Below, piece by piece: positions 2,698 through 43,180 of a DNA stretch of 64,000 nt. The notes under the pieces are model-generated. The model had not been told where the DNA came from. It worked only from the letters and a program-made list of their open reading frames with translations, and made no database searches. The position numbers were made by a program, and so were the translations under genes. This DNA is from Halichondria panicea (taxonomy: Eukaryota; Porifera; Demospongiae; Suberitida; Halichondriidae): assembly GCF_963675165.1 (NCBI RefSeq), contig NC_087377.1, positions 2,340,824-2,404,823 on the forward strand, read 5' to 3'. Each line of letters starts with the position of its first letter. The first letter of the stretch is position 1.

Positions 2698-3342
2698 CCG
2701 GTGTCATAAAATTTTGGGCCCCCGGGCCTAGAATGTTAACAGTTTAGGCCCCCCAGGGGGTCCAAAATGTTAACATTCTGGGCCCCCACTGTGAGATTAG
2801 GCCCCCCTCTTCTGCTTTTCTGCACGATCGTACGATAGAAGGAAGTCAAAGAGATATAGGTAAGGTTAGCTCTATTAGTTGACAAAGCATCAAAGAGACT
2901 GCATGCATGCAAAGACTCTGTATCAAACTAGCAAAAATGTTTGCATTATTATTCTATCATGGAATTATAAAAGTGAAGGAAGATTTACCTTTCAAGTTAC
3001 TCATGCTTTACCTATAAGGCCACTCCAAGTGATACTCTGGTTTCTGGTCCTGAAGTTTTTCTAATTGCAAGCGGGCGGGCGGCTTTTCTCATTATGTCAT
3101 TATCAATTTCACCTTATGAATCTCATTATTTTTCAAATGAATATCATTATCACACTATTTTGTACCGCATGGACCATTCTGCGCATGCGCAGTAGAAATA
3201 ATGAGATAGAAATCCAATAATGAGATAGAAATCCAAGAATAAAATCTGATGCGGGCGGTGGACCAGAAACCAGAGTATTACTTGGAGTGGCCTAAGAGTT
3301 AAATGCTTTGATGCAGCTCTGCAATGTTGGATCTGCCTATAA
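2698..3342 (+). mobile_element. Left part of an older DNA transposon, split by the 10-kb insertion
   Basis: Begins CCGGTGTCATAAAATTTT and follows the complete element at 17772-18797 as far as GATCTGCCT. There the match jumps to 13439, after the 10.1-kb block. A 275-bp MITE (3018-3292) sits inside it. The right third and the right terminal repeat are missing from this copy. Confidence 0.8.
3018..3292. mobile_element. 275-bp MITE with TAA target-site duplication
   Basis: Long terminal inverted repeats begin GGCCACTCCAAGT and extend through TACTCTGGTTTCTGGTCC. TAA flanks both ends (3015-3017 and 3293-3295). The uninterrupted copy near 18113 has a single TAA and no insert. A GGCC start with a 3-bp TAA duplication is typical of PIF/Harbinger-type MITEs. 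Internal sequence is AT-rich and non-coding. Confidence 0.85.
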
Positions 3343-4283
3343 CCCTTTCCTTGCCATTCGTGAAATCTGGAACAGGAGCGTCTTTAGGTCGATCAATTAG
3401 TGTGGATCCGGCCTCACCACGCCTCCAAGTCATTCTATTAGTCTAGATCCGGCTAGCAATTCTAGCTGGGACTCCCAGTTCTAGCTCCTTTTGTTTAGCG
3501 TGTCAGAGACTGGGAGAAGATGATTGGCACTCCCTGGCTCCTTTGGATGTACAGCTGTCCAGATCCCTAGAACATACCCTCCATTCTGACGAGTTATCAG
3601 TGCATAGGGTGCTTACTAGATTCTTGCCAGCCAGTACAGTTCAAGCTACACACAGCACCGCTCAACTATTCTCTACCCCATTATCTAGCTAAATCTGGTC
3701 CAACTAGACAGCAGACACAGCTAGTTAATTCAGTAAAGCCAGGGGTAGCCCTACTTCTACGGTTGTTCAGTACCCACGGTAACAATTCCTCTGGGCTGGG
3801 CTAACTAGTTGAGCCACGCCTCCCAATTCTCAAGGCTAGGTACATGTCTCTGTCTAGCTGCTTCTTCAGCTTCTTGCTCAGTTTTGTGGCTTAGAGAAAG
3901 GCCAGCTACTCAGGGGGAAGAGTCCAGATGAAAGTCTGGCAGCCAGGTGACGTCCAAACGGTCAGTTATTCTTTCCACCAACTTTTTAATCTAGTCTAGT
4001 CCTGCTTGCACTGCTACTACTACTGCTGCCTACTGCTGCTACTCTTCCTAGCTAGTCAAAGGTTTCTTTTTTTTTTTTTTTTTTTTTATAACTACATATG
4101 CACAAAGAGACATCAAAGCTTACATCAAAGGACACAGATTTTTAGCCTACTTGACTGATAAGGCGGTTACCTAGACTACAGTTTGTTTGTCAGGGAGGAG
4201 CTCACATACAACTTCATCTAATTCATCATAACGATTCCTTACCCATTGTTGTAATTTCTACAACAGATTGCCAAGGAAAGAGA
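3343..4283. mobile_element. 940-bp inverted-repeat element, left copy
   Basis: Starts TAA-CCCTTTCCTTGCC and ends GGCAATCT on the opposite strand after TCTTTCCTT, so the ends are short inverted repeats. TAA lies on both sides. The copy at 12498-13438 has the same length and appears identical. A T tract near 4070 and tandem CTACTACTGCTGC are inside. No protein family was recognised. It could be a non-autonomous piggyBac or PIF/Harbinger derivative: the CCCT end resembles piggyBac, the 3-bp TAA resembles Harbinger. Confidence 0.65.
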
Positions 4284-4448
4284 TAATTACAACAGAATTT
4301 ACAACAGAGTGGGTTAGGGCCTCTCATATACAACTGAATTCTTTATCACAATTTTATTAATCATTGAAATAATACCCCTTTCCTCCCCTCTCCAAGGCCA
4401 ATTTAGACCAGGAGAGTACCATCTAACAAAAATCAGTCACACAGCACA

Positions 4449-7400
4449 TTAGCTAGCACATGTGTGTCCGATAACAGAGTGTCCTTTGCATATTCTTATG
4501 CGACAGTGGGGACATGCCATTGCAGTGTGTTGCTGCTCTCTGCTAGGGATCTTCTCCCGAACACACACTTGACAGCGCCCACGAGACACTCCGACACTAT
4601 TTGCACTCACACGTGCGCCCTGTGATGGGGGGAAAACGATATTTAGACTGGCCAGACCTGAGGCACTGCTACGAGTACGTGGCACACCCAATAGACTATG
4701 AATTAGTTCCAATCGAAACCCTTTCAAAGGCATGGCCTTTGAACCCACCCTGACACAGTTGTGCCTGTATAGAATGTATGCATTATTCACACTAACGTCA
4801 AGGAATTGAAAGAAAATCCTGAACCAATACCGCCGACACTTTCTATCGTACCCATAGGTTTTCCTCATACGCCCTGTATTGTCAACTCCTCCCATGTACA
4901 TGTTATATGCAGGGAGACAGGGGGGGACACTCTGAGAGCGTAGGGTACCGTCTTTGTGCATTCGCATTACAGTGTGGGGCATATGGTCAGGGAACACATT
5001 TGTTGCAAAGGACACAACTCTACGGTCGTTAAACATAGAGTAAGAAATATCACCAACAGTCATGGACGTATAGTCACCTTTGTCGAGTACCACATCCTTA
5101 AGACTTGCTGGGAAACCAGCAGCATTCTTCAAAATTGTGCCGACAGTAAACACATTTTGCTTAGCCAACTCTTCTATCAATGGACCGGACGTGTAAAAGT
5201 TGTCCATGTACACAACATGCTGATGACCATAAAAAGGAGTGAGTAAACGATGGACTACATTTTTCACAAGCCCTTTCACAGCTATCTTTTTCCCAGAGGA
5301 ATCGGTGAGCTTACCACTGTATACATCAAACACACAGAGATACCCACAGCATGAACATGAGCAGCACCATACCTTGAACCCCAGTTTAACAGGCTTCTTG
5401 GGCATATGAATTTTCCCGCTTTTACGACCCTTGTACTTTATCATCATCTCATCAACGGAAAGCTCCTGACTGGGATTATACCTCATGAAGTAGTTGGCTT
5501 TAAGAGTCTCTAAAACAGTTTTTAGCTTGCTAGTTACCTTACGTGCATCAGTGATGGACGTATTGTCCTCACAGTGCAGATACCGCCATAAACTTTGGAA
5601 CCTTTTGAGCGACATTACATTGCTCACACATTGTACACCTAAAAGGGGATCCTTGGACCAGTAGTCCGTAATTTCAGGGAGCCTATGAATGCCCATCTCT
5701 AGTACAATCCCCAAAAACACCCACAATTCGGCACTGTTTGTAGCTGACCAACCCTTAGCACCACACTGCCTAGCGTACAGGTTGGTCTGTTCGGCTATGT
5801 ACTCACACAAACTATCGGGCCAAAGTAACTTAACAAAATCTAGGCATGGAGTTACAGACGGATCAAGTTGATCGACAGGACCGACCACACCGCCAAAGAC
5901 GGGGTATCTTCCTGTGGACTTAGCTTTTTGGAGTCCATTGTCCCTCGCCAGCTTCCTCCGTTTGGGAGTCGGAGCCATGCCATCGACCATTTCGTCATCA
6001 TCCTCCACTGCAGCATCTGCACGGAAACAAAGCATGAATATCATTAGAGTACCACAAGAGTGCTCGCCAGTGCAGGTGGGGGACAGGCTATGAATGTCAT
6101 TATGTGGGCGTACCACACGCTAGTGGTGCTATGAATATCATTAACTACTGGGGGGGTTAGGGCGCATAGGTACAGTACAGCAGAGGAAAAGGCTCGTCCA
6201 CATCAAAGGCTCGTGGGAGGAGCCCAACAAACCACAACAACCATGAATGTCATTAGTGGGCGTACCACACGCTAGTGGTGCTATGAATATCATTAACTAC
6301 TGGGGGGGGGGGGGGGTTAGGGCGCATAGGTACAGTACAGCAGAGGAAAAGGCTCGTCCCCATCAAAGGCTCGTGGGAGGATCCCAACAAACCACAACAA
6401 CCATGAATGTCATTACGTGGGCGTACCGCACGCTAGTGGTGCTATGAATATAATTAACTACTGGGGGGGGGGGGGGTTAGGGCACATAGGTACAGTACAG
6501 CAGAGGAAAAGGCTCGTCCCCATCAAAGGCTCGTGGGAGGATCCCAACAAACCACAACAACCATGAATGTCATTATGTGGGCGTACCGCACGCTAGTGGT
6601 GCTATGAATATCATTAACTACTGGGGGGGGGGGGTTAGGGCACATAGGTACAGTACAGCAGAGGAAAAGGCTCGTCCACATCAAAGGCTCGTGGGAGGAG
6701 CCCAACAAACCACAACAACCATGAATGTCATTACGTGGGTGTACCACACGCTAGTGGTGCTATGAATATCATTAACAACTGGGGGGTGGGGTTAGGGCAC
6801 ATAGGTACAGTACAGCAGAGGAAAAGGCTCGTCCCCATCAAAGGCTCGTGGGAGGAGCCCAACAAACCACAACAACCATGAATGTCATTATGTGGGCGTA
6901 CCACACGCTAGTGGTGCTATGAATATCATTAACTACTGGGGGGGGGGGGGGGGGGGTTAGGGCACATAGGTACAGTACAGCAGAGGAAAAGGCTCGTCCA
7001 CATCAAAGGCTCGTGGGAGGAGCCCAACAAACCACAACAACCATGAATGTCATTACGTGGGCGTACCGCACGCTAGTGGTGCTATGAATATCATTAACTA
7101 CTGGGGGGGGGGGGGTTAGGGCACATAGGTACAGTACAGCAGAGGAAAAGGCTCGTCCACATCAAAGGCTCGTGGGAGGAGCCCAACAAACCACAACAAC
7201 CATGAATGTCATTACGTGGGTGTACCACACGCTAGTGGTGCTATGAATATCATTAACAACTGGGGGGTGGGGTTAGGGCACATAGGTACAGTACAGCAGA
7301 GGAAAAGGCTCGTCCCCATCAAAGGCTCGTGGGAGGAGCCCAACAAACCACAACAACCATGAATGTCATTACGTGGGTGTACCACACGCTAGTGGTGCTA

Positions 7401-8555: not shown

Positions 8556-11500
8556 TTAGCTAGCACATGTGTGTCCGATAACAGAGTGTCCTTTGCATAT
8601 TCTTATGCGACAGTGGGGACATGCCATTGCAGTGTGTTGCTGCTCTCTGCTAGGGATCTTCTCCCGAACACACACTTGACAGCGCCCACGAGACACTCCG
8701 ACACTATTTGCACTCACACGTGCGCCCTGTGATGGGGGGAAAACGATATTTAGACTGGCCAGACCTGAGGCACTGCTACGAGTACGTGGCACACCCAATA
8801 GACTATGAATTAGTTCCAATCGAAACCCTTTCAAAGGCATGGCCTTTGAACCCACCCTGACACAGTTGTGCCTGTATAGAATGTATGCATTATTCACACT
8901 AACGTCAAGGAATTGAAAGAAAATCCTGAACCAATACCGCCGACACTTTCTATCGTACCCATAGGTTTTCCTCATACGCCCTGTATTGTCAACTCCTCCC
9001 ATGTACATGTTATATGCAGGGAGACAGGGGGGGACACTCTGAGAGCGTAGGGTACCGTCTTTGTGCATTCGCATTACAGTGTGGGGCATATGGTCAGGGA
9101 ACACATTTGTTGCAAAGGACACAACTCTACGGTCGTTAAACATAGAGTAAGAAATATCACCAACAGTCATGGACGTATAGTCACCTTTGTCGAGTACCAC
9201 ATCCTTAAGACTTGCTGGGAAACCAGCAGCATTCTTCAAAATTGTGCCGACAGTAAACACATTTTGCTTAGCCAACTCTTCTATCAATGGACCGGACGTG
9301 TAAAAGTTGTCCATGTACACAACATGCTGATGACCATAAAAAGGAGTGAGTAAACGATGGACTACATTTTTCACAAGCCCTTTCACAGCTATCTTTTTCC
9401 CAGAGGAATCGGTGAGCTTACCACTGTATACATCAAACACACAGAGATACCCACAGCATGAACATGAGCAGCACCATACCTTGAACCCCAGTTTAACAGG
9501 CTTCTTGGGCATATGAATTTTCCCGCTTTTACGACCCTTGTACTTTATCATCATCTCATCAACGGAAAGCTCCTGACTGGGATTATACCTCATGAAGTAG
9601 TTGGCTTTAAGAGTCTCTAAAACAGTTTTTAGCTTGCTAGTTACCTTACGTGCATCAGTGATGGACGTATTGTCCTCACAGTGCAGATACCGCCATAAAC
9701 TTTGGAACCTTTTGAGCGACATTACATTGCTCACACATTGTACACCTAAAAGGGGATCCTTGGACCAGTAGTCCGTAATTTCAGGGAGCCTATGAATGCC
9801 CATCTCTAGTACAATCCCCAAAAACACCCACAATTCGGCACTGTTTGTAGCTGACCAACCCTTAGCACCACACTGCCTAGCGTACAGGTTGGTCTGTTCG
9901 GCTATGTACTCACACAAACTATCGGGCCAAAGTAACTTAACAAAATCTAGGCATGGAGTTACAGACGGATCAAGTTGATCGACAGGACCGACCACACCGC
10001 CAAAGACGGGGTATCTTCCTGTGGACTTAGCTTTTTGGAGTCCATTGTCCCTCGCCAGCTTCCTCCGTTTGGGAGTCGGAGCCATGCCATCGACCATTTC
10101 GTCATCATCCTCCACTGCAGCATCTGCACGGAAACAAAGCATGAATATCATTAGAGTACCACAAGAGTGCTCGCCAGTGCAGGTGGGGGACAGGCTATGA
10201 ATGTCATTATGTGGGCGTACCACACGCTAGTGGTGCTATGAATATCATTAACTACTGGGGGGGTTAGGGCGCATAGGTACAGTACAGCAGAGGAAAAGGC
10301 TCGTCCACATCAAAGGCTCGTGGGAGGAGCCCAACAAACCACAACAACCATGAATGTCATTAGTGGGCGTACCACACGCTAGTGGTGCTATGAATATCAT
10401 TAACTACTGGGGGGGGGGGGGGTTAGGGCGCATAGGTACAGTACAGCAGAGGAAAAGGCTCGTCCCCATCAAAGGCTCGTGGGAGGATCCCAACAAACCA
10501 CAACAACCATGAATGTCATTACGTGGGCGTACCGCACGCTAGTGGTGCTATGAATATAATTAACTACTGGGGGGGGGGGGGTTAGGGCACATAGGTACAG
10601 TACAGCAGAGGAAAAGGCTCGTCCCCATCAAAGGCTCGTGGGAGGATCCCAACAAACCACAACAACCATGAATGTCATTATGTGGGCGTACCGCACGCTA
10701 GTGGTGCTATGAATATCATTAACTACTGGGGGGGGGGGGTTAGGGCACATAGGTACAGTACAGCAGAGGAAAAGGCTCGTCCACATCAAAGGCTCGTGGG
10801 AGGAGCCCAACAAACCACAACAACCATGAATGTCATTACGTGGGTGTACCACACGCTAGTGGTGCTATGAATATCATTAACAACTGGGGGGTGGGGTTAG
10901 GGCACATAGGTACAGTACAGCAGAGGAAAAGGCTCGTCCCCATCAAAGGCTCGTGGGAGGAGCCCAACAAACCACAACAACCATGAATGTCATTATGTGG
11001 GCGTACCACACGCTAGTGGTGCTATGAATATCATTAACTACTGGGGGGGGGGGGGGGGGGGTTAGGGCACATAGGTACAGTACAGCAGAGGAAAAGGCTC
11101 GTCCACATCAAAGGCTCGTGGGAGGAGCCCAACAAACCACAACAACCATGAATGTCATTACGTGGGCGTACCGCACGCTAGTGGTGCTATGAATATCATT
11201 AACTACTGGGGGGGGGGGGGTTAGGGCACATAGGTACAGTACAGCAGAGGAAAAGGCTCGTCCACATCAAAGGCTCGTGGGAGGAGCCCAACAAACCACA
11301 ACAACCATGAATGTCATTACGTGGGTGTACCACACGCTAGTGGTGCTATGAATATCATTAACAACTGGGGGGTGGGGTTAGGGCACATAGGTACAGTACA
11401 GCAGAGGAAAAGGCTCGTCCCCATCAAAGGCTCGTGGGAGGAGCCCAACAAACCACAACAACCATGAATGTCATTACGTGGGTGTACCACACGCTAGTGG

Positions 11501-12471: not shown

Positions 12472-12497
12472 TTGGATTCAAAAGTTTTGAAAAATAA

Positions 12498-13438
12498 CCC
12501 TTTCCTTGCCATTCGTGAAATCTGGAACAGGAGCGTCTTTAGGTCGATCAATTAGTGTGGATCCGGCCTCACCACGCCTCCAAGTCATTCTATTAGTCTA
12601 GATCCGGCTAGCAATTCTAGCTGGGACTCCCAGTTCTAGCTCCTTTTGTTTAGCGTGTCAGAGACTGGGAGAAGATGATTGGCACTCCCTGGCTCCTTTG
12701 GATGTACAGCTGTCCAGATCCCTAGAACATACCCTCCATTCTGACGAGTTATCAGTGCATAGGGTGCTTACTAGATTCTTGCCAGCCAGTACAGTTCAAG
12801 CTACACACAGCACCGCTCAACTATTCTCTACCCCATTATCTAGCTAAATCTGGTCCAACTAGACAGCAGACACAGCTAGTTAATTCAGTAAAGCCAGGGG
12901 TAGCCCTACTTCTACGGTTGTTCAGTACCCACGGTAACAATTCCTCTGGGCTGGGCTAACTAGTTGAGCCACGCCTCCCAATTCTCAAGGCTAGGTACAT
13001 GTCTCTGTCTAGCTGCTTCTTCAGCTTCTTGCTCAGTTTTGTGGCTTAGAGAAAGGCCAGCTACTCAGGGGGAAGAGTCCAGATGAAAGTCTGGCAGCCA
13101 GGTGACGTCCAAACGGTCAGTTATTCTTTCCACCAACTTTTTAATCTAGTCTAGTCCTGCTTGCACTGCTACTACTACTGCTGCCTACTGCTGCTACTCT
13201 TCCTAGCTAGTCAAAGGTTTCTTTTTTTTTTTTTTTTTTTTTATAACTACATATGCACAAAGAGACATCAAAGCTTACATCAAAGGACACAGATTTTTAG
13301 CCTACTTGACTGATAAGGCGGTTACCTAGACTACAGTTTGTTTGTCAGGGAGGAGCTCACATACAACTTCATCTAATTCATCATAACGATTCCTTACCCA
13401 TTGTTGTAATTTCTACAACAGATTGCCAAGGAAAGAGG
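12498..13438. mobile_element. 940-bp inverted-repeat element, right copy
   Basis: Same sequence and length as 3343-4283, in the same orientation. It is bounded by TAA at 12495-12497 and 13439-13441. The right TAA is shared with the older host element, which resumes here with TAAGACAATCGATG. Confidence 0.7.
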
Positions 13439-13715
13439 TAAGACAATCGATGTTGTTGCATAGCTATCGCCATATTTGCAACTTCGTGCTTACTTTCTTA
13501 GTCAAATTTCAGGACAAAAAAGTATAAAACACACAATTTCAGTGCAAAGACAACAATTCATATCTTCCTCCTATGTTTTCCTATATAGAAGATGTAAATT
13601 GTTGTGGGGGTGCTCTAATAGCATCACTGGCTCAGCTCTCAAGTAATGTGGAATCATAGATAGAAGTCAAGAGAGAAACTGTTGTATCATGGTGGAATCA
13701 CAATAGCAGTTTCCT
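13439..13715 (+). mobile_element. Continuation of the older DNA transposon after the 10-kb insertion
   Basis: From TAAGACAATCGATG to AGCAGTTTCCTTT this matches 18163-18446 of the complete element. It then diverges, so the right ~350 bp of this copy, including the right terminal repeat, are lost. It shows that the 3343-13438 block was inserted into a pre-existing element. Confidence 0.85.
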
Positions 13716-23085: not shown

Positions 23086-23595
23086 TACTGGACTGCAATG
23101 CATGGTCCTTCAGCTCTCATGCCTTGAGACACTCTAGCTCTCTCTTAGCCTCCTTCACAAGGCCTCAGCCTCTCTTCTAGGAAGAGCGGCCTGGGATCGA
23201 GGCTAGCTCTCTCTGATCATGAGGTCATGTGGTTAACAAGAAGCAACTGAAGTGATCCCATACCCAACAAGAATGGTAAAGGGTCACTAGACTAGAAAAT
23301 TGGAAATGATAAAAATGTTATAAAATTAATAGAAGGTGATGGTATATATACATGTATGCACACACACACAGAACACAGAGCATTATAATAGTCAGTACTT
23401 ATAGTCAACACAGAGTTAGTTCTTTACTTAATATTCTTGCATGCTTCTTTACTTGACATCTTTATTCGTCCCTTTCAGTATCTGTATGAAAGCATGAGCA
23501 GCACAATCAACCAGAGTCTTCTAAGCTATAAGCAACATGACATAAGATTAGACTACTTAAATTACAAACACACGTACCTTGTCAGGTTCTCATGA

Positions 23596-26500
23596 TCAAT
23601 TGGTGGCACTATGAGCAACTGCAGTTGCTGTCCTCACATACTTTTCTTCAATTTTCTCGGCTACATCGTTACGCTCAACAGTAGGACTCCTTAGACATTC
23701 ACATATGTAAGGCCATGTCATCGGATGTTCTGGATCAGTGACTTCAAGACGCTTGACCACCATCTCTGTTAGGCGGCGTTTGTTACTAGCGTGTTGGTCT
23801 TCAATGTCTTTCAAGTCAGTAATATTCATTCCGAGAGCCAATCCTAAATCAAACCAATCTTTGCTTGCATTTTTGAGACTATCGCGAATTGTTTGGATAT
23901 CAGCTCCAGTCAGAAACAGTTTTGGAATTTCTACTGTTTGGTCAATTTTGCTAGGATGCTCCTCTGCTGACAATCCTCCTGTACACACATGTGAACATAA
24001 TATTAGGGAAAGTGACCAGCTTTATAGACAATGACATAAGATTACAAACATGTATAATTATGTAAGCCTTTTTTCGAATTCACTTAAATAGAAAAGGTAC
24101 GCTTGTAACAAAGGATGATGACATCACGTGACATCAGTCTCAAAGAATCAAGTTTATAGGGCAGGCCTTATGGGGGATTAAGCAAAGTTCAAAGTGCGCT
24201 ACACATTGCGTATGTGTGGTTGGGGTAACAATGTAATGAATGGTAGGAATGAGGACAATGGATTAGCAATACTGTAATAATGAAACTATGATCTGAGAGA
24301 AGTTTAATGGAATTATACGGCCAACACAGATACTATTATAGTTACTTGGGGTTAGATTGTTAGACAGTAGACGTATAATGTTGATCTAATTCACAATACA
24401 AACCAATGCACAGTATCTGCTACCTGACTGAGTGGTTGTGTGTGGAGTGGCTAGTGGAGTCACTGCATTACCTGTGAGGAGGATATGACAATATAACAGT
24501 CATGCACAAGAGTTATTCTGTACCACTAATTACAGTTGTTGTAATTGCACAATGTTACGATCAAGCTACGTATATTCAAATCATTTAGCTGAAGCTGGCT
24601 TATTCAATCAAGATTGACCTGTAGTCCTAAAATTCCAAAGTGGATCCCCTGATAAACCTTCAATGTATATTAGACTGGCTATGCAGTTGTAAGAGTTCTG
24701 TTGTCATTGTGGGGCAGAGGAAGTAAACACTGTATACATATAGGTTATAATATGTAAAGTTTTCTGCCCTATAAGACCCCCAAGACAGGAAGTGCTACAA
24801 GTTGCCTCATGAATATATCTTTGTGTGCGATAAAAAGCCTGGTTTTTAATGAAATATGTAATAAGAAGACAGTTTAAACATACGATAAACGCTTTAGAAT
24901 TTTAGCATAAACTCATAACTTAGCACCGAACCATGCTGTTCACTTTTTGAGGGTCAACAACTGAAGGTGCACTTAAAAACATACACAGATACGGCTATAC
25001 ACATAAACTGACTGCGGGGTACTGAGGAAAAAATAAGTTGTTAAAATCAATCAATGTTTGTGCCATACAAGTATCAGGACAGTATACATGTACAGGAAAA
25101 GTATTATCAGTAGATTACTTACAGCGAATACGTAGGGCCAAACGATGGCTCTCTTCGGTTCTCATCAGCCAAAATTTTACTGATTCAGAAACCAAATTTC
25201 CGTTCAGATTAAATCTATAATTGATGGCTGGAACAAGTCCAAGTTGTCTATTAGAACCCAACACTCTTGAGTATCCCTCAATACGATCTCTGGACAGCTA
25301 CAAGCAAGCATATACGTACACAGTCACATGTAATAGTCACACCAGTCCATTGTTTTTGCATGTTATCCTCCCCAAGAGTGTATGCTTTTTAATATTACTG
25401 CCTATATATTTATACATGTCTATCTATATACTATAATTATAACTCACAGTGGATGATCCTCTATCAACAGTCCAAAGCTCGGAATTCTCTGAACGCAGCT
25501 CCACCTCCACCACATTTTCAAATTGAATTTGATCTAGATCCGTTTCTTTTGTGAATCTATCTTTTTCTAACTCCTCTCTAATTACCTGTAATAATAAAAG
25601 CTCATAATTATGCATGTAACACTGTATGGTAGGCGTATATTATATATGCTTCCTTATCTATTACTGGGAAACCTACCTTTACATGAGTTGCTAGATCCTG
25701 ACATACCACACATTTCACGTCAATTGTGTGATGGGGGAGCGAGTTCTTTCTGAACAGCAAGGCACTGTACATCTTCTCAGTTGGAAAGCCAAATACTTTA
25801 CGAATGAAAACACCGAGGCGACTGAAACGAGTAAGCTGGATGGATCCATAGCGTTCACCAATAGGAAAGTGTCCACCCTCCAGGATCTCAAACTTTTTGC
25901 TCTGATCTGTTGCTCGAGCAAAGACAAACTTTTGTTGATGGTGGTCAGAGCTTAAACTCGCACAGTGTTGTATTTCCAAGGTGAGAGGCTTCTTAAACTG
26001 TACTTTGGGCTCACATTTCACACGATAAATTGAGCTGAGTAGTTTAAAGTTAGCGGGAGTCTCAAAGTCAGTGGATAACTCAAAGGATATGTGTAAGACA
26101 CACGTATCGATACCTTCAGGTAGCGAATTTTCCAGGACAGAAATCTTAATTCCAAAATTGATAAACTTCATAGATTTGTTACTGATTTCCACAAGATATT
26201 CTCCTATAGATATACGAAATATGTTATTTTTATATTCTGCCACAGAAATAAACACAAAGAGATCAAGGCCACGCATGGTTACATAATTATGTATAGCAAA
26301 ATTCTGTAAACCATGAAACAAATTCACAATTGAGAGGAAAATCATGCACATGAGAAGCATAAGTACAATGGTTTTAAAGTTGCATATTTTCACCAAAACC
26401 AGATGTATACGTTCTAATTGTATACGTTCTAATCTGACTAATGCAGTCTCATCATACCTTGTTTTAGACGGTTTGACAGAGTTTCAACTTCTTCACCTGA

Positions 26501-29500
26501 TCCCAATAATCTTTTGCGCTCTAGAAGATCTGTATATACGTATGCATTAGGAAATGTCAGCAATACCTCCAGTCCTACATGAGGAGGGAGGGAGACACAA
26601 GAGTCAGCAACTACAGCTATATATATAATTATACACTATATGGCAGTATGTGCTCATTTGACTACGAATTAAGCTCACAAAACTAATGATCAAAGTGTCA
26701 GTCAATTAGGTAAACTCACTGGTATGCTCCACACAGGCCTTGTGAATGCTGCGAACTGCCTCTCCGTCCTCAATCTCTGAGGCAATTTCCACTAATCGAT
26801 CGTAAGTAGCTGTTGAATTCGATGGATTGAATTGGAGAATATTTTTACTCTTCCACTTCTTTAGAGCAGCGAGGAATTTCCCTGGAATACCAACAATTGT
26901 CAGATCGATAGCACCAATCTCAGCATCACTGAGGCCCAGCCTGTGCTTGTATCTGTCATAGCCAGCAATCTCGGTAGACAACTGGAGAAGAGCTTCATCC
27001 GAGCACTCTTGACTCAACTGAGCTGCAGTCGCTGTCACTATCGTCTTATGTGGCTGAACTGTACAGATCACATTATTTCCAATGACACATACAACGCTAT
27101 ACTCTGAAATGTACACCAAATACTTTATCACTGTCACATGAGACCCCATACACAATACAACTGTCAAGGCTATAATTGAAGATTGCTTCAATTTAGATTG
27201 CTATACTTGTACAATAATTATGTCGTGAATAATTATAGTGATTACATTAATTCCCAAGTTGTTCCCTTAATTAGCTTATGCTAAAATCAATATTAAAGTT
27301 CCAACAAAGATGTGAAAAAATGGATTAGGCAGGTGAAATAAGCAAGTATAATTATAGGAGAGTCGTACCAATGACATGTACATGTACAATTATAGTACTT
27401 AGAATGCTGTATACTATTATTGCATGGCACAACTGCATGACGAGCAAGTTCACAAAGTTAATAAGGTAACTCACGTGTATCCTTGACACAGGCCTTGTGA
27501 ATGCTGCGAACTGCCTCTCCGTCCTCAATCTCTGAGGCAATTTCCACTAATCGACCGTAAGTAGCTGACGATTTCGATGGATTATCGAAAATGATGCTTT
27601 TACTCTTCCACTTCTTTAGAGCAGCGTGAAATCTCCCTGGGATATTATCAATGGTCTGATCGATATTCTCAATCTCAGCATCACTGAGGCCCAGCCTGAG
27701 CTTGTATTTGTCATAGCCAGCTATCTCGGTAGACAACTGGAGAAGAGCTTCATCCGAGCACTCTTGACTCAACTGAGCTGTAGTCGCTGTTGTCTCACGT
27801 TGTTGAACTGTACAGATAAAACATACACAGTTAAGTGACATCATTTCCTCTATAAAATGTACAGTACTGTTCGGATTTACAAAATAATACTACAGTCAAA
27901 CCAATGCACAGTATCTGCTACCTGACGGAGTGGTTGTGTGTGGAGTGGCTAGTGGAGTCACTGCATTACCTGTGAGGAGGATATGACAATAATTATAACA
28001 GTCATGCACTAGAGTACCACTTCATTACACAATGTTATGGTCAAACTACTCTTAGACCTAGGAGCTAAAGAATCCAAGGTGCCATAATAAAAGCTTCACA
28101 CTATATTATACATTTAATTTTTTGGGGCAGAGAACAAGCTGAAAATGACTTTCCAAAAAAAAAGCTCACTAAAATGTATGGTAAATGGAATTGGGCAGTT
28201 GTAAGAGTTCTGTTGTCATTGTGGGGCAGAGGAAGTAAACACTGTGTACACTGGTTACGGACAACAAAGAAAGTAGGTTAGACAACTATTACCTGTGAAG
28301 ATGACTAACAATAACAATCATGAGACATTCTTACACAATGCAACGACTGCTGCATAGCTTCAATCTATAGATTGACCACTTGTACATTTATGTATAGTGT
28401 TACTATAATAAAGCTTCACACTGCAATGTAAGTGGGTTTGCATGCATGCTCTTACCGATACTTTTTCTCAGGCAGTGGTACACGGTAAAGAAATGCTTCT
28501 GGTTCTTGGAGATCTCACAACTGATAAAGCCCTTGAAGTGACCATTTGACGAGGCTTTGAATTCCAATTTGTGTTCATCACAGTTAATTTCAGGTATTCT
28601 CTTGCTCCACTCGAAGGAGAGGCTCTTGTCCCTCAACTCTTGGTTAGAGGCAAAGGGCAAGGCCCGTAGAGAAACATCCTCTCCCAGGCTGACTTCCTGT
28701 ATACACACACCGAAAAAAACAATTGGTTAATACGAAGAAAACATATCATAAATGGAGGCATGCACACAACAATAATTATAGACTAACTTTTGCAAACCAG
28801 CATTCTTGGTGAGGGCTCAGAGAGACTCTGTGTGTGCAGCTAAAGCAGGGATCAACTCCTGTTGTGAGGAGGCAAAGCTTGGAACCATCTTCATGTTTGC
28901 CGCAGTAGCAGTCGAAGGCAATAATCGGAGAGAGTAGTGGACTAATATCCTTCATCACCAACAGGAGGGTTGAGAGGACGTAGGAACAAAGCTCGTGCAT
29001 CGTATGGTCCTTGCATTTTCGAATAATTCGTATTTCGTAGCTATCAACCTGAGAAATCAGGGTAACAAAATGCTTGGCAGATTCGTCAATGTGAAAGGAG
29101 ACGAGGTTTCTCTTTACTGGAGAATCAGTGGCAAGTTTCCAAGTCATGCCCAGAATGCCCTTGCCTTTACTCCCCCTTGAGACCAAATCACTGATCATGG
29201 CACAGAATATTCCAGTGGGAACGTATTGGGGGTCAAATGTGATCTTGATTGGAGAGGGTGTATCAATGCCAGTGGTGGGTGGTTTCGTTAGTTCCTCGGG
29301 AGATGCACACTTGAGAATGGCAGGGATGAAATACGTCGTTTCGATTTTTTCTGTGGTATGGCCTTCCTTCACCACTGCTGTGATTTTGGCCAAAAGATGG
29401 GAATGCTCGAGCAGTATGAGCAGCTTCTCAACAGGAATCAACTGGTCTTTCTTCACACCCTGGTTTTCTTCCGAATGGCATCGAGTGATTGTTTTCAGTG

Positions 29501-31391
29501 AGAATTGCCCCTTGAGTATCCAATTCTTTCTCTCAGCTTCCTTGAAGTGAATACTGCTCATTTCAGAATGGAGCTCCAGCAGCGGATTGACAACGAGAAC
29601 ACTGAGGCTGTTGAATACCACTTGGGGGTTGCAAATGACAAAGTTCCTAAACCATTTGTCCTTGATCTCTGGATGATAGATTAAAGCTCCAACATACCGA
29701 TCCAGGTACCAAACGGTGAATCGAACCTCCTCCTCTCTCATCTTTAACCCCTCGGTACCGATACGAATACATTCTTCCATAGACACAATGTCATACTCTT
29801 TTCTCAGTACAACTCCAAACAAAAGCTGTTGTGGGCGAATGCGAAGCTTGGCATCTTTGAAATAGCTACTGAATAAGCCATGAAGATGTTCACGAAGAGG
29901 TTCCATATCAGAATCAGTGCCTTCGTAGTTGTCCACTGCTATGAACCTCTTGTCCTTTGGGTTAGAAAGTAAATCCTCAAACTTGCTGGTAATCGTGCTC
30001 ACAGCTTCGTTTTTCTCCGTCAACTTTTGCTCTAACCGGTCTTGGACACATTTATTGAAAGGGTCTGAGTTGAGGTTTTGGCTGATTGTTTGCTCAATGG
30101 CAGCCGTGTCTTCTGCACTGACGTTAGCTTGCTTATCACTCTTTGTTTGAGTCAAAATATCCCGAATTGCTTTCTTTTGTTCGTGTTCTTCTAGGCTCTT
30201 GCTGGCAGTGGTACTATCGCTCTTGCAGACAATCGCTCTTGCAGACAGCTTTTGTTGAGGCACAATATTTCTCGTATAGAAGATCGACTTTGATTTGCAT
30301 TGCCAGTTCATCCTTGAAAGTACCTATGAGGGTAGCAACAGGCTTAGTAGAGCCTAGGTTGCCCAGTTTACTACACTGCTCTCTGTCAATATCCGAGTCA
30401 ATCTTAGTATGATGGTTGATACCTGAGAGGATTTGAGAGAGCGTTTCTCTGTTTGTGTAAGTTGAATGATCTTGTCCTTTCCTCGTTCGTAGGAGACTTG
30501 ACACATGTCATCGAGGTCTTTGTCCAGTCGAAAGAATACCAGAAAAATCCCTGCGCCTTTGCTTAGAAAAGGAAACATCTCCACAAATCCAGGCTGCCCA
30601 CCTATATCGACCAGATTGAGTAGGACTTTGTTCAGCAGCTCTTTAGTGTACTCTCCTGAACCCACAATACTCCGAAGTCTCGACACAACCTTTTCAACAT
30701 CTACAGTGGTCACTTTCCCGACCTTTTTCGGTGGTTCTGGTGTTTGCCTAGGTGTTGGTGATACCGTTTCTTTGGGTGCAGTAGCAGCTTCATCGATCTT
30801 GAGTTGAGTTTGCTTCTTTGGGTCAGTGGTTTCTTTTGTGGGCTGTTCCTTAGGTGGACTGACAGTGCTGTCTTCAATAGGTTCACAGGACATAAGGTAA
30901 GAGAAGATAAACTGTGTTTCTTCCTCTAGGCTTGAAGATGCTTTGAATTCAAGCTTTGTTCCAGATTTGTCAACAAAGGCCAATACTTGTTCACACTCGG
31001 CTAGTAATGTACTGCAGCGTTTCCTTTGATTTTCGGGCAGCAAAGACAGGTTAGTAATGGATCCAACAAGCCGCTGTCGAGTGGTCGTTTTTCCAAGACC
31101 CGAGGGACCAATGAAGTGCGTCTTGAGATAATGTAGCTCTATAGTGCCACTTGTGTCGGCCATCAGCTCATCCAGTTTTTTCAAGTAGGTTCGGTTTTGA
31201 GTATTGACTGTAAAAGAGCAAACAATCGGTCATACGTAATTATTTATTAAAGCAAAGTACTTAATTTCAGTAAATTGAGGTATATAAATTGTAACATTAG
31301 ATAAACGGTACTAACTACAATTGTGTTCAATGGTTCGGGAGCTGAATTTAGTAGTTCCAATTTTATGATTTTCTGAACAAGACATCTCCAT
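23596..31391 (-). CDS. ROC-type GTPase / COR-like / Death-Death-ZU5-UPA-Death signalling protein
   Basis: Twelve exons with consistent phases: 31316-31391, 28788-31207, 28456-28696, 27922-27969, 27475-27807, 26720-27058, 26458-26529, 25677-26203, 25448-25585, 25123-25297, 24424-24471 and 23596-23978, about 1600 codons. Exon 2 has Walker A GPSGLGKTTT (about 59-68), then a T/P/K-rich insert, switch DIGGQPGF (about 226) and IGTFKDEL, followed by a COR-like helical region with FVICNPQVVFNSLS. Exon 3 resembles a weak Ig fold. Exons 5 and 6 are Death domains; exon 8 is ZU5; exons 8-10 are UPA; exon 12 is a third Death domain. ROC-COR-Death recalls DAPK1, and ZU5-UPA-Death recalls PIDD and UNC5. It is presumably cytosolic, with no signal peptide or TM. 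Exon 2 has two frame breaks (near 30465, and a 16-bp duplication at 30216-30247). Confidence 0.85.
24424..24740 (-). repeat. Duplicated linker exon plus intron, downstream copy
   Basis: The 48-nt exon (NAVTPLATPHTTTQS) and about 270 bp of neighbouring intron, including GTAAGAGTTCTGTTGTCATT, match 27922-28250. The exon is a multiple of three and phase 1/1-compatible, so duplication inserts a Thr/Pro linker without breaking the frame. Confidence 0.8.
27922..28250 (-). repeat. Duplicated linker exon plus intron, upstream copy
   Basis: Upstream copy of the Thr/Pro linker exon (one Q-to-P difference) with its intron flank. It joins the Ig-like exon to the first Death exon, while the other copy joins UPA to the last Death exon. 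An internal segmental duplication probably helped build this gene. Confidence 0.8.
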
Positions 31392-33908: not shown

Positions 33909-39138
<5,230 letters not shown>

Positions 39139-42139: not shown

Positions 42140-43180
42140 GTGATCCCGTACCCAACAACAATCACTAAACTAGAAAGCTGAAATGAAATTTTGCCAAAAA
42201 AGTATAAAAATAGAAGGTGATGGTATATATACATGTATACACACACACACAGGACACAGAGCATTATAATAGTCAGTACTTATAGTCAACACAGAGTCAG
42301 TTCTTTACTTGACATTCTTGCATGCTTCTTTACTTGACATCTTTATTCGTCCCTTTCAAGTAGCTCCAGTATCTGTATGAAAGCATGAGCACAGCACAAT
42401 AAACTAGAGCCTTATAAGCAAAACATTGCAATAAAACACTGTGTGCAATGAAAATAGGGATCAGATTTATGAATATTCCAGTAATAATCTGTTTAAAAAC
42501 ATGAGTGCATGATTTAGGAGCCCTCAGGGCTAGTAGAACCATCAAGTACTTAGAATGCTGTATACTATTATGGCATGGCACAACTGCATGACGAGCAAGT
42601 TCACAAAGTTAATAAGGTAACTCACGTGTATCCTTGACACAGGCCTTGTGAATGCTGCGAACTGCCTCTCCGTCCTCAATCTCTGAGGCAATTTCCACTA
42701 ATCGACCGTAAGTAGCTGTTGAATTCAATGGATTGAATTGGAGAATATTTTTACTCTTCCACTTCTTTAGAGCAGCGAGGAATTTCCCTGGAATACCAAC
42801 AAATGTGTGATCGATAGCACCAATCTCAGCATCACTGAGGCCCAGCCTGTGCTTGTATCTGTCATAGCCAGCAATCTCGGTAGACAACTGGAGAAGAGCA
42901 TCATCCCAGCACTCACTACTCAACTGAGCTGCAGTCGCTGTCACTATCGTCTTATGTGGCTGAACTGTACAGATCACATTATTTCCAATGATATACAACG
43001 CTATACTCTGAAATGTACACCAAATACTTTATCACTGTCACATGAGACCCCATACACAATACAACTGTCAAGGCTATAATTGAAGATTGCTTCAATTTAG
43101 ATTGCTATACTTGTACAACAATGATGTCATGAATAATTATAGTGATCACATTAATTCCCAAGTTGTTCCCTTAATTAGCT
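42140..43180 (-). repeat. Partial duplication of the ROC/Death gene
   Basis: 42140-42390 matches the 3' flank of the ROC/Death gene (23235-23500). 42540-42660 matches the intron after its first Death exon (27397-27520), and 42960-43180 matches the intron before its second Death exon (27055-27280). Only one Death exon is present. Confidence 0.8.
42626..42964 (-). pseudogene. Isolated hybrid Death-domain exon
   Basis: 112 codons with acceptor and donor, phases as in the parent exons. The N-terminal part (VQPHKTIVTATAAQL, RYKHRLGLSDAEIGAID) follows the second Death exon at 26720-27058. The C-terminal end (YGRLVEIASEIED, KDT) and the flank beyond follow the first at 27475-27807. No start or partner exons are visible, so it may be untranslated, or used as an alternative exon. 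The open frame is intact. Confidence 0.75.

Follow-up and report, generated by a model that had tools for sequence, protein, structure and literature searches.

Proteins of the ROCO type, such as DAPK1 and LRRK2, and proteins carrying a ZU5-UPA-Death module, such as PIDD, UNC5 and NLRP1 with its FIIND, are commonly treated as separate signalling routes. In DAPK1, ankyrin repeats are followed by Roc, COR and Death domains, and in UNC5b the ZU5-UPA part holds the Death domain closed. Here, a locus of the sponge Halichondria panicea is described in which exons for both sets of domains lie in a row. It is located in a stretch of 64,000 nucleotides (C1:2340824-2404823; hereafter the window) of a genome that was searched over 131 Mb in 39 contigs, and labels such as L010, L066 or L071 denote other loci of the same genome. 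On the minus strand, from 31385 to 23596, the domain order reads Roc-like GTPase, COR-like, immunoglobulin (Ig)-like, linker, Death, Death, short exon, ZU5, UPA-like, linker and Death. The modular family to which this locus belongs is real and, within the text searched, undescribed, while the window copy itself is real but a broken mosaic.

A review of ROCO proteins distinguishes three groups, with DAPK1 representing the Death group, and the word ZU5 is absent from its main text (PMC6337361). Like members of the DAPK1 group, which combine Roc-COR-Death with ankyrin repeats and a kinase, the window has a Roc-COR-like core followed by Death, with ankyrin exons upstream. Unlike them, it has no kinase in the pieces scanned with Pfam (part of the upstream sequence lay outside the scan), carries an Ig-like exon between COR and Death, has ZU5-UPA added and belongs to a family with very many copies. 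With the ZU5-UPA-Death proteins PIDD1, UNC5 and the ankyrins and with the FIIND of NLRP1 and CARD8, the window shares ZU5, a UPA-like part and Death, as well as F-S at the aligned cleavage position. In contrast to all of these, its module stands behind a Roc-COR-like core, R replaces H or S at position -2, the UPA-like part is split over two exons, and extra Death domains precede ZU5. Brown-algal ROCO genes form an expanded family with exon shuffling and have been proposed as immune receptors; in the sections of that article consulted, however, it is N-terminal leucine-rich repeat exons that shuffle, whereas the sponge family exchanges C-terminal Death and ZU5 modules (PMC11378527). For marine animals, the consulted sections of another study report expansions in which TRADD-N is fused to FIIND and UPA-Zu5, AP-GTPases being mentioned there in other contexts (PMC8195603), and those of a further one list NACHT-Zu5 among the architectures of early diverging animals (PMC12909245). 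As far as these sections go, the TRADD-N and NACHT fusions of sponges and other marine animals likewise join an NTPase or adaptor to Death-like and ZU5 parts, with lineage expansion and variable architectures, but the partner is NACHT or TRADD-N there and Roc-COR here (PMC8195603, PMC12909245). No mention of a protein with both Roc-COR and ZU5-UPA was found in the literature searched, subscription papers being outside its reach.

The combination of a Roc-COR-like GTPase with Death and ZU5-UPA, which an earlier note on this DNA had pointed out as an unusual fusion, is borne out as an exon order and recurs at two further loci, L071 and L066; the window copy is one of at least 116 Roc-COR places in the genome, some of them partial, and a mosaic. 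This count was obtained by two protein searches, both of which score best candidates only, and is hence a lower bound. ZU5 was found at 74 places, three of which (window, L066 and L071) are situated on the same strand and at most 2.6 kb downstream of Roc-COR. This neighbourhood of Roc-COR and ZU5 is beyond chance: three pairs were observed versus 0.067 expected, and none of 2000 shuffles, in which 55 ZU5 places were moved within contigs, reached three. The shuffles spread ZU5 places evenly over the contig, which leaves gene clustering outside the null. As the window had been picked for this very combination, the independent evidence consists of the other two pairs.

L071 displays the order Roc-COR-Ig-Death-Death-ZU5 over 1358 codons without a stop, with a whole Roc-COR frame and seven introns whose phases agree. 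Both of its Death domains exceed the Pfam cut-off (26.4 and 32.5 bits) and its ZU5 reaches 18.2 bits (cut-off 21). In L066, Roc-COR-Ig is followed by ZU5-UPA across phase-1 junctions read by eye, and the Death exons of the window have no match there at E <= 0.01. Using L010, the core of which is 99.6% identical to the window over COR, as stand-in for the window cassette, Roc-COR identity amounts to 73% with L071 and 41% with L066. The ZU5 of the window, in turn, is 34% identical to that of L071 and 80% identical to that of L066. Roc-COR and ZU5 thus have conflicting relationships, from which it follows that the joins arose more than once. This points to repeated shuffling of exons, with phase-1 introns as the main sites; such borders make joins of this kind easy.

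Two further places of the genome show other surroundings of these modules. At L068 (1152-6036, plus strand), the same ZU5-UPA module is preceded on its own strand by ankyrin repeats and a protein kinase. At L029 (C1:205417), a Roc-COR copy lies within an open frame of 2394 amino acids, 968 of which were scanned with no Pfam match better than E = 0.1.

For the window, a gene model was built from stop-to-stop frames, Pfam scans and a splice-site scan with a generic matrix. It comprises the following features.

31316..31385, minus strand: candidate first exon with ATG, 23 codons plus one base, phase-1 donor
28788-31208, minus strand: whole Roc/COR exon, phase-1 acceptor
30357..31208, minus strand: open part of the Roc-like GTPase with G1 GPSGLGKT and G3 DIGGQPG; Pfam Roc 17.9 bits (cut-off 27)
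30216..30247, minus strand: tandem duplication of 16 bases (two copies) that shifts the frame; L010-L014 have the unit once
28788..30215, minus strand: COR-like region (COR-A plus C-terminal half), open frame; donor at 28787, phase 0
28456..28696, minus strand: Ig-like exon, from its splice sites; the exon of L066 at the same place matches Ig_3
27922..27969, minus strand: linker mini-exon 1, 48 bases, phase 1-1; near-identical exon at 24424-24471
27475..27807, minus strand: Death exon 1, phase 1-1; Pfam Death E = 5.6e-4, 20.4 bits (cut-off 22.6)
26720..27058, minus strand: Death exon 2, phase 1-1; 81% identical to Death exon 1
26458..26574, minus strand: short exon of unassigned kind before ZU5, phase 1-1; recurs before ZU5 in L067 and L069
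25677..26236, minus strand: ZU5 exon; Pfam ZU5 26.8 bits (cut-off 21); FIIND-like position TRF-SRLGVF
25448..25585, minus strand: UPA-like exon 1, from its place after ZU5; 74-81% identity to post-ZU5 exons at seven other genome places
25123..25297, minus strand: UPA-like exon 2, from its place after ZU5; 56-70% identity at the same seven places
24424..24471, minus strand: linker mini-exon 2, 48 bases, phase 1-1
23596..23978, minus strand: Death exon 3 with stop codon; Pfam Death E = 0.002, 18.7 bits (cut-off 22.6); L010 has the same stop
36731..37911, minus strand: ankyrin exons upstream (37911-37594, about 37229, 36838-36731), phase-1 donors read by eye; Pfam Ank for the first exon

Between the Ig exon and the stop at 23596 there are nine introns, all GT-AG, with phases that agree at each junction and a spliced frame of 793 codons plus stop; seven of them are in phase 1 and the two inside ZU5-UPA in phase 0, as is the COR-Ig junction. 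In the splice-site scan, which used author-set ranges, 17 of the 19 chosen sites were top-scoring (acceptors 9/10, donors 8/9), the lower-ranked ones being the acceptor of Death exon 2 (third best) and the donor of linker 2 (second best). Compared with L010-L014, the candidate ATG exon has zero indels from ATG to donor and indels on either side; its donor score is weak. To the COR-like region, 90 stretches of the genome match, the window's own included. The phase-consistent exons of the earlier note are hence borne out from the Ig exon to the stop, whereas its Roc exon contains a TAG at 30354-30356; and of the proposed single chain, exon order, strand and coordinates stand, while its continuity is lost to two indels that break the Roc frame.

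Compared with L010-L014, the five closest copies, each of which has an open frame of 812-935 amino acids, the Roc exon of the window is 10 bases short near 30467 and contains the 16-base tandem duplication at 30216-30247. The two indels jointly restore the downstream frame, yet the shifted part between them meets the TAG before the G4 motif. Barring unseen splicing or editing, a chain from Roc to Death can therefore not be made from the sequence as it stands. The window copy is probably degenerate, or at most yields a product starting within or after COR.

Regarding the individual domains, the ZU5 assignment of the window exon is firm. For a modest, low-confidence structural model of it, seven of the eight best structural alignments were to ZU5-bearing chains of ZO1 and ankyrin. 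The motif residues of the GTPase (G34/G39/K40/T41, D201/G203/G204/Q205 and G299/T300/K302/D303) are the same in all 18 aligned copies, so that the family has the P-loop, DxxG and [NT]KxD-type motifs by which ROCO GTPases are recognized, with G4 out of frame in the window copy. Pfam Roc matched 15 of these 18 copies at E <= 0.1 (best 0.0022, below cut-off). COR-A of Pfam was reached via relatives, namely L079 (E = 5e-7; 30.2 bits, cut-off 35.3) and L066 (E = 0.041); it found no match in L010, to which L079 is 40% identical over the aligned part. Altogether, the COR-A model matches 14 family places with E-values from 2.4e-5 to 0.04, all under cut-off (14/70 genome matches, overlap counted by eye). 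Pfam UPA had no match in the genome, where the control matched nowhere either and exons were read apart, nor in the spliced window piece; the designation UPA-like is based on the position after ZU5 and on conservation. The Ig-like domain that the earlier note considered possible has no Pfam match in the window exon itself; the call is based on L066, whose exon in the corresponding position hits Ig_3 below the cut-off (E = 8e-6). The three Death domains of that note are backed for exons 1 and 3 by Pfam matches below cut-off and for exon 2 by the 81% identity to exon 1, exon 2 having no match.

Elsewhere in the genome, 25 places exceed the Pfam COR-A cut-off, several of them with a same-strand Death match a few kb downstream (e.g. 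C1:3016824 with C1:3012951 and C6:727262 with C6:731163). Such pairs may represent a broader ROCO-Death expansion.

In NLRP1, CARD8 and PIDD, the ZU5-UPA (FIIND) module is cut before a serine, and the position in CARD8 reads SPSF-SLMGILLR, according to the parts of the respective articles consulted (PMC3210808, PMC8081665). Where the earlier note had suggested looking for an HFS-like site, the window has F-S at the aligned position, with R instead of H before it (TRF-SRLGVF). Among 13 ZU5 exons of the family, F is kept in all, followed by S in ten, C in two and E in one; among 20 rows outside the ZU5 group of the window, 12 have HF-C or HF-S (one row being all gap). CARD8 is reported to tolerate changes at -2 (PMC3210808), and R is therefore compatible with cutting. 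A histidine precedes the serine by 16 residues in the window versus 27 for H270 of CARD8 in the same source, and is at most a candidate counterpart of it. Autoproteolysis of this ZU5 module is a possibility.

Local alignment of the window with other loci revealed where its parts recur. Patches of the window from 41 to 33.7 kb (ankyrin exons) and the segment from 27.2 to 25.0 kb (Death 2, short exon, ZU5, UPA) are collinear with C1:173-186k (L072/L069). This locus has the order ankyrin-Death-Death-ZU5-UPA, and no Roc-COR was placed in it by local alignment or by the genome searches. The latter segment is 80-85% identical to L072/L069; upstream, the firmest patches cover ankyrin exons, at 37.6-37.9 kb with 73% and at 36.6-37.2 kb with 77% identity, and several others are short or repeated. 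The stretch from 31.7 to 27.2 kb, which lies between these parts, has its counterparts in the Roc-COR-Ig-link-Death cassettes L010-L014 (92-98%), over its full length (L014) or part of it. From 24.5 to 23.6 kb, the window resembles the 3' parts of L012 (90% over linker and Death 3) and of L010 (85% over Death 3). As judged from these alignments, the window is a mosaic of segments that are present in other combinations elsewhere in the genome.

Taken as a whole, the window is rather probably one, likely degenerate, member of a lineage-expanded modular family of ROCO-type scaffolds, with a Roc-COR-Ig core and exchangeable C-terminal modules. Several points weigh against this reading. In the profile searches that the earlier note had proposed, ZU5 passed its cut-off, but in the window Roc reached 17.9 bits where 27 are required, and Death exons 1 and 3 stayed at 20.4 and 18.7 bits, below their cut-off of 22.6, while Death exon 2 had no Pfam match of its own and COR and UPA had no direct one. 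Furthermore, one scan over the entire COR stretch of L066 found no match to COR-A, the AlphaFold model of Roc-COR is too poor for use (mean predicted local distance difference test score 42), and the splice sites of L071 and L066 were picked by eye. At the F-S site, position -2 is occupied by R, and in L076, a copy with 64% identity, S is replaced by E. Finally, the ankyrin exons with their surroundings and Death2-ZU5-UPA are collinear with the cassette-free L072/L069.

This last point also fits two interleaved genes, a serious rival given the mosaic of segments and one that we regard as possible, albeit unlikely. Here, an ankyrin-Death-Death-ZU5-UPA gene would have received a copy of a Roc-COR-Ig-Death cassette in an intron and would be spliced past it, the cassette being a decaying passenger with its own start. 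The 92-98% match of 31.7-27.2 kb to the cassettes L010-L014, the broken Roc and the phase-1 donor of the last ankyrin exon, which fits the Death acceptors, are all in line with such an arrangement. However, the Ig, linker and Death exons of the cassette have good donors and stay in phase up to the ZU5 part, Roc-COR and ZU5 are joined differently at two further loci, and part of the collinearity comes from short patches that occur repeatedly in the window or in L072. Far less probable is one giant gene starting from the ankyrin exons (ankyrin-Roc-COR-Ig-Death-Death-ZU5-UPA-Death) with a DAPK1-like core: the phase-1 acceptor of the Roc exon would fit the ankyrin donors and ankyrin-Roc-COR-Death is the order of DAPK1, but L010-L014 retain the candidate ATG exon that shortly precedes Roc, and Roc is broken in the window. 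An assembly artefact, in which near-identical cassettes were collapsed or mis-joined, the two indels included, is the least likely of all, since the combination also occurs at L066 and L071 in strongly diverged sequence, even though a mis-join is conceivable with L010 at 99.6% identity over COR about 82 kb away.

According to the favoured reading of an expanded scaffold family, exchangeable modules (Death exons, linker mini-exons and ZU5-UPA) would be lined up behind the Ig exon, with phase-1 introns as their outer borders, allowing segments to be duplicated and joined without loss of frame. At the window locus, a Roc-COR-Ig-link-Death cassette precedes Death-ZU5-UPA and link-Death exons. The complete protein, as suggested by L071, would be an intracellular scaffold, in which, by analogy with known families, nucleotide state and COR dimerisation might control exposure or clustering of the Death domains and these in turn might recruit partners. 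ZU5-UPA could hold a Death domain closed as in UNC5b, and release might occur by self-cleavage at the F-S or F-C bond as in CARD8, NLRP1 and PIDD. A role in cell death or immunity, as the domain content would suggest, is our inference. Bolder, and in our view doubtful, is the idea of combinatorial GTPase-controlled death or immune platforms, in which autoproteolytic ZU5-UPA and Death exons were shuffled onto Roc-COR-Ig such that one switch serves many, partly self-cleaving outputs: a Roc-COR counterpart of PIDD and of the NACHT-based NLRP1 that originated repeatedly in a single genome. A family joining both signalling routes, with more than 100 Roc-COR copies and swapped ends, would show how an early animal lineage diversifies its death or immune platforms, and would make it possible to test directly if a Roc-COR GTPase can gate Death-domain assembly and ZU5 self-cleavage within one chain. 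This significance is carried mostly by L071 and the family and less by the window copy.

Some additional features of the window were noted, all coordinates being those of the window. At 23577 on the minus strand, 19 bases past the stop of Death exon 3, lies a strong donor-like site, the GT of which is kept in L010 and L015; it perhaps belongs to an intron in the 3' untranslated region or is left over from a longer gene. Upstream of the ankyrin exons, at 42612-42956 (minus strand), a further Death-like exon is found that is 91% identical to Death exon 2 (Pfam Death E = 0.049). Two transposase frames of 556 amino acids with the same translation are situated at 4449-6119 and 8556-10226 (minus strand), the first of which matches Pfam DDE_Tnp_1_7 (E = 9e-69). 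Outside this pair, a stretch of about 0.95 kb occurs twice in the window, at 3340-4285 and 12495-13440, and once in the ZU5 locus L067 (97% identical).

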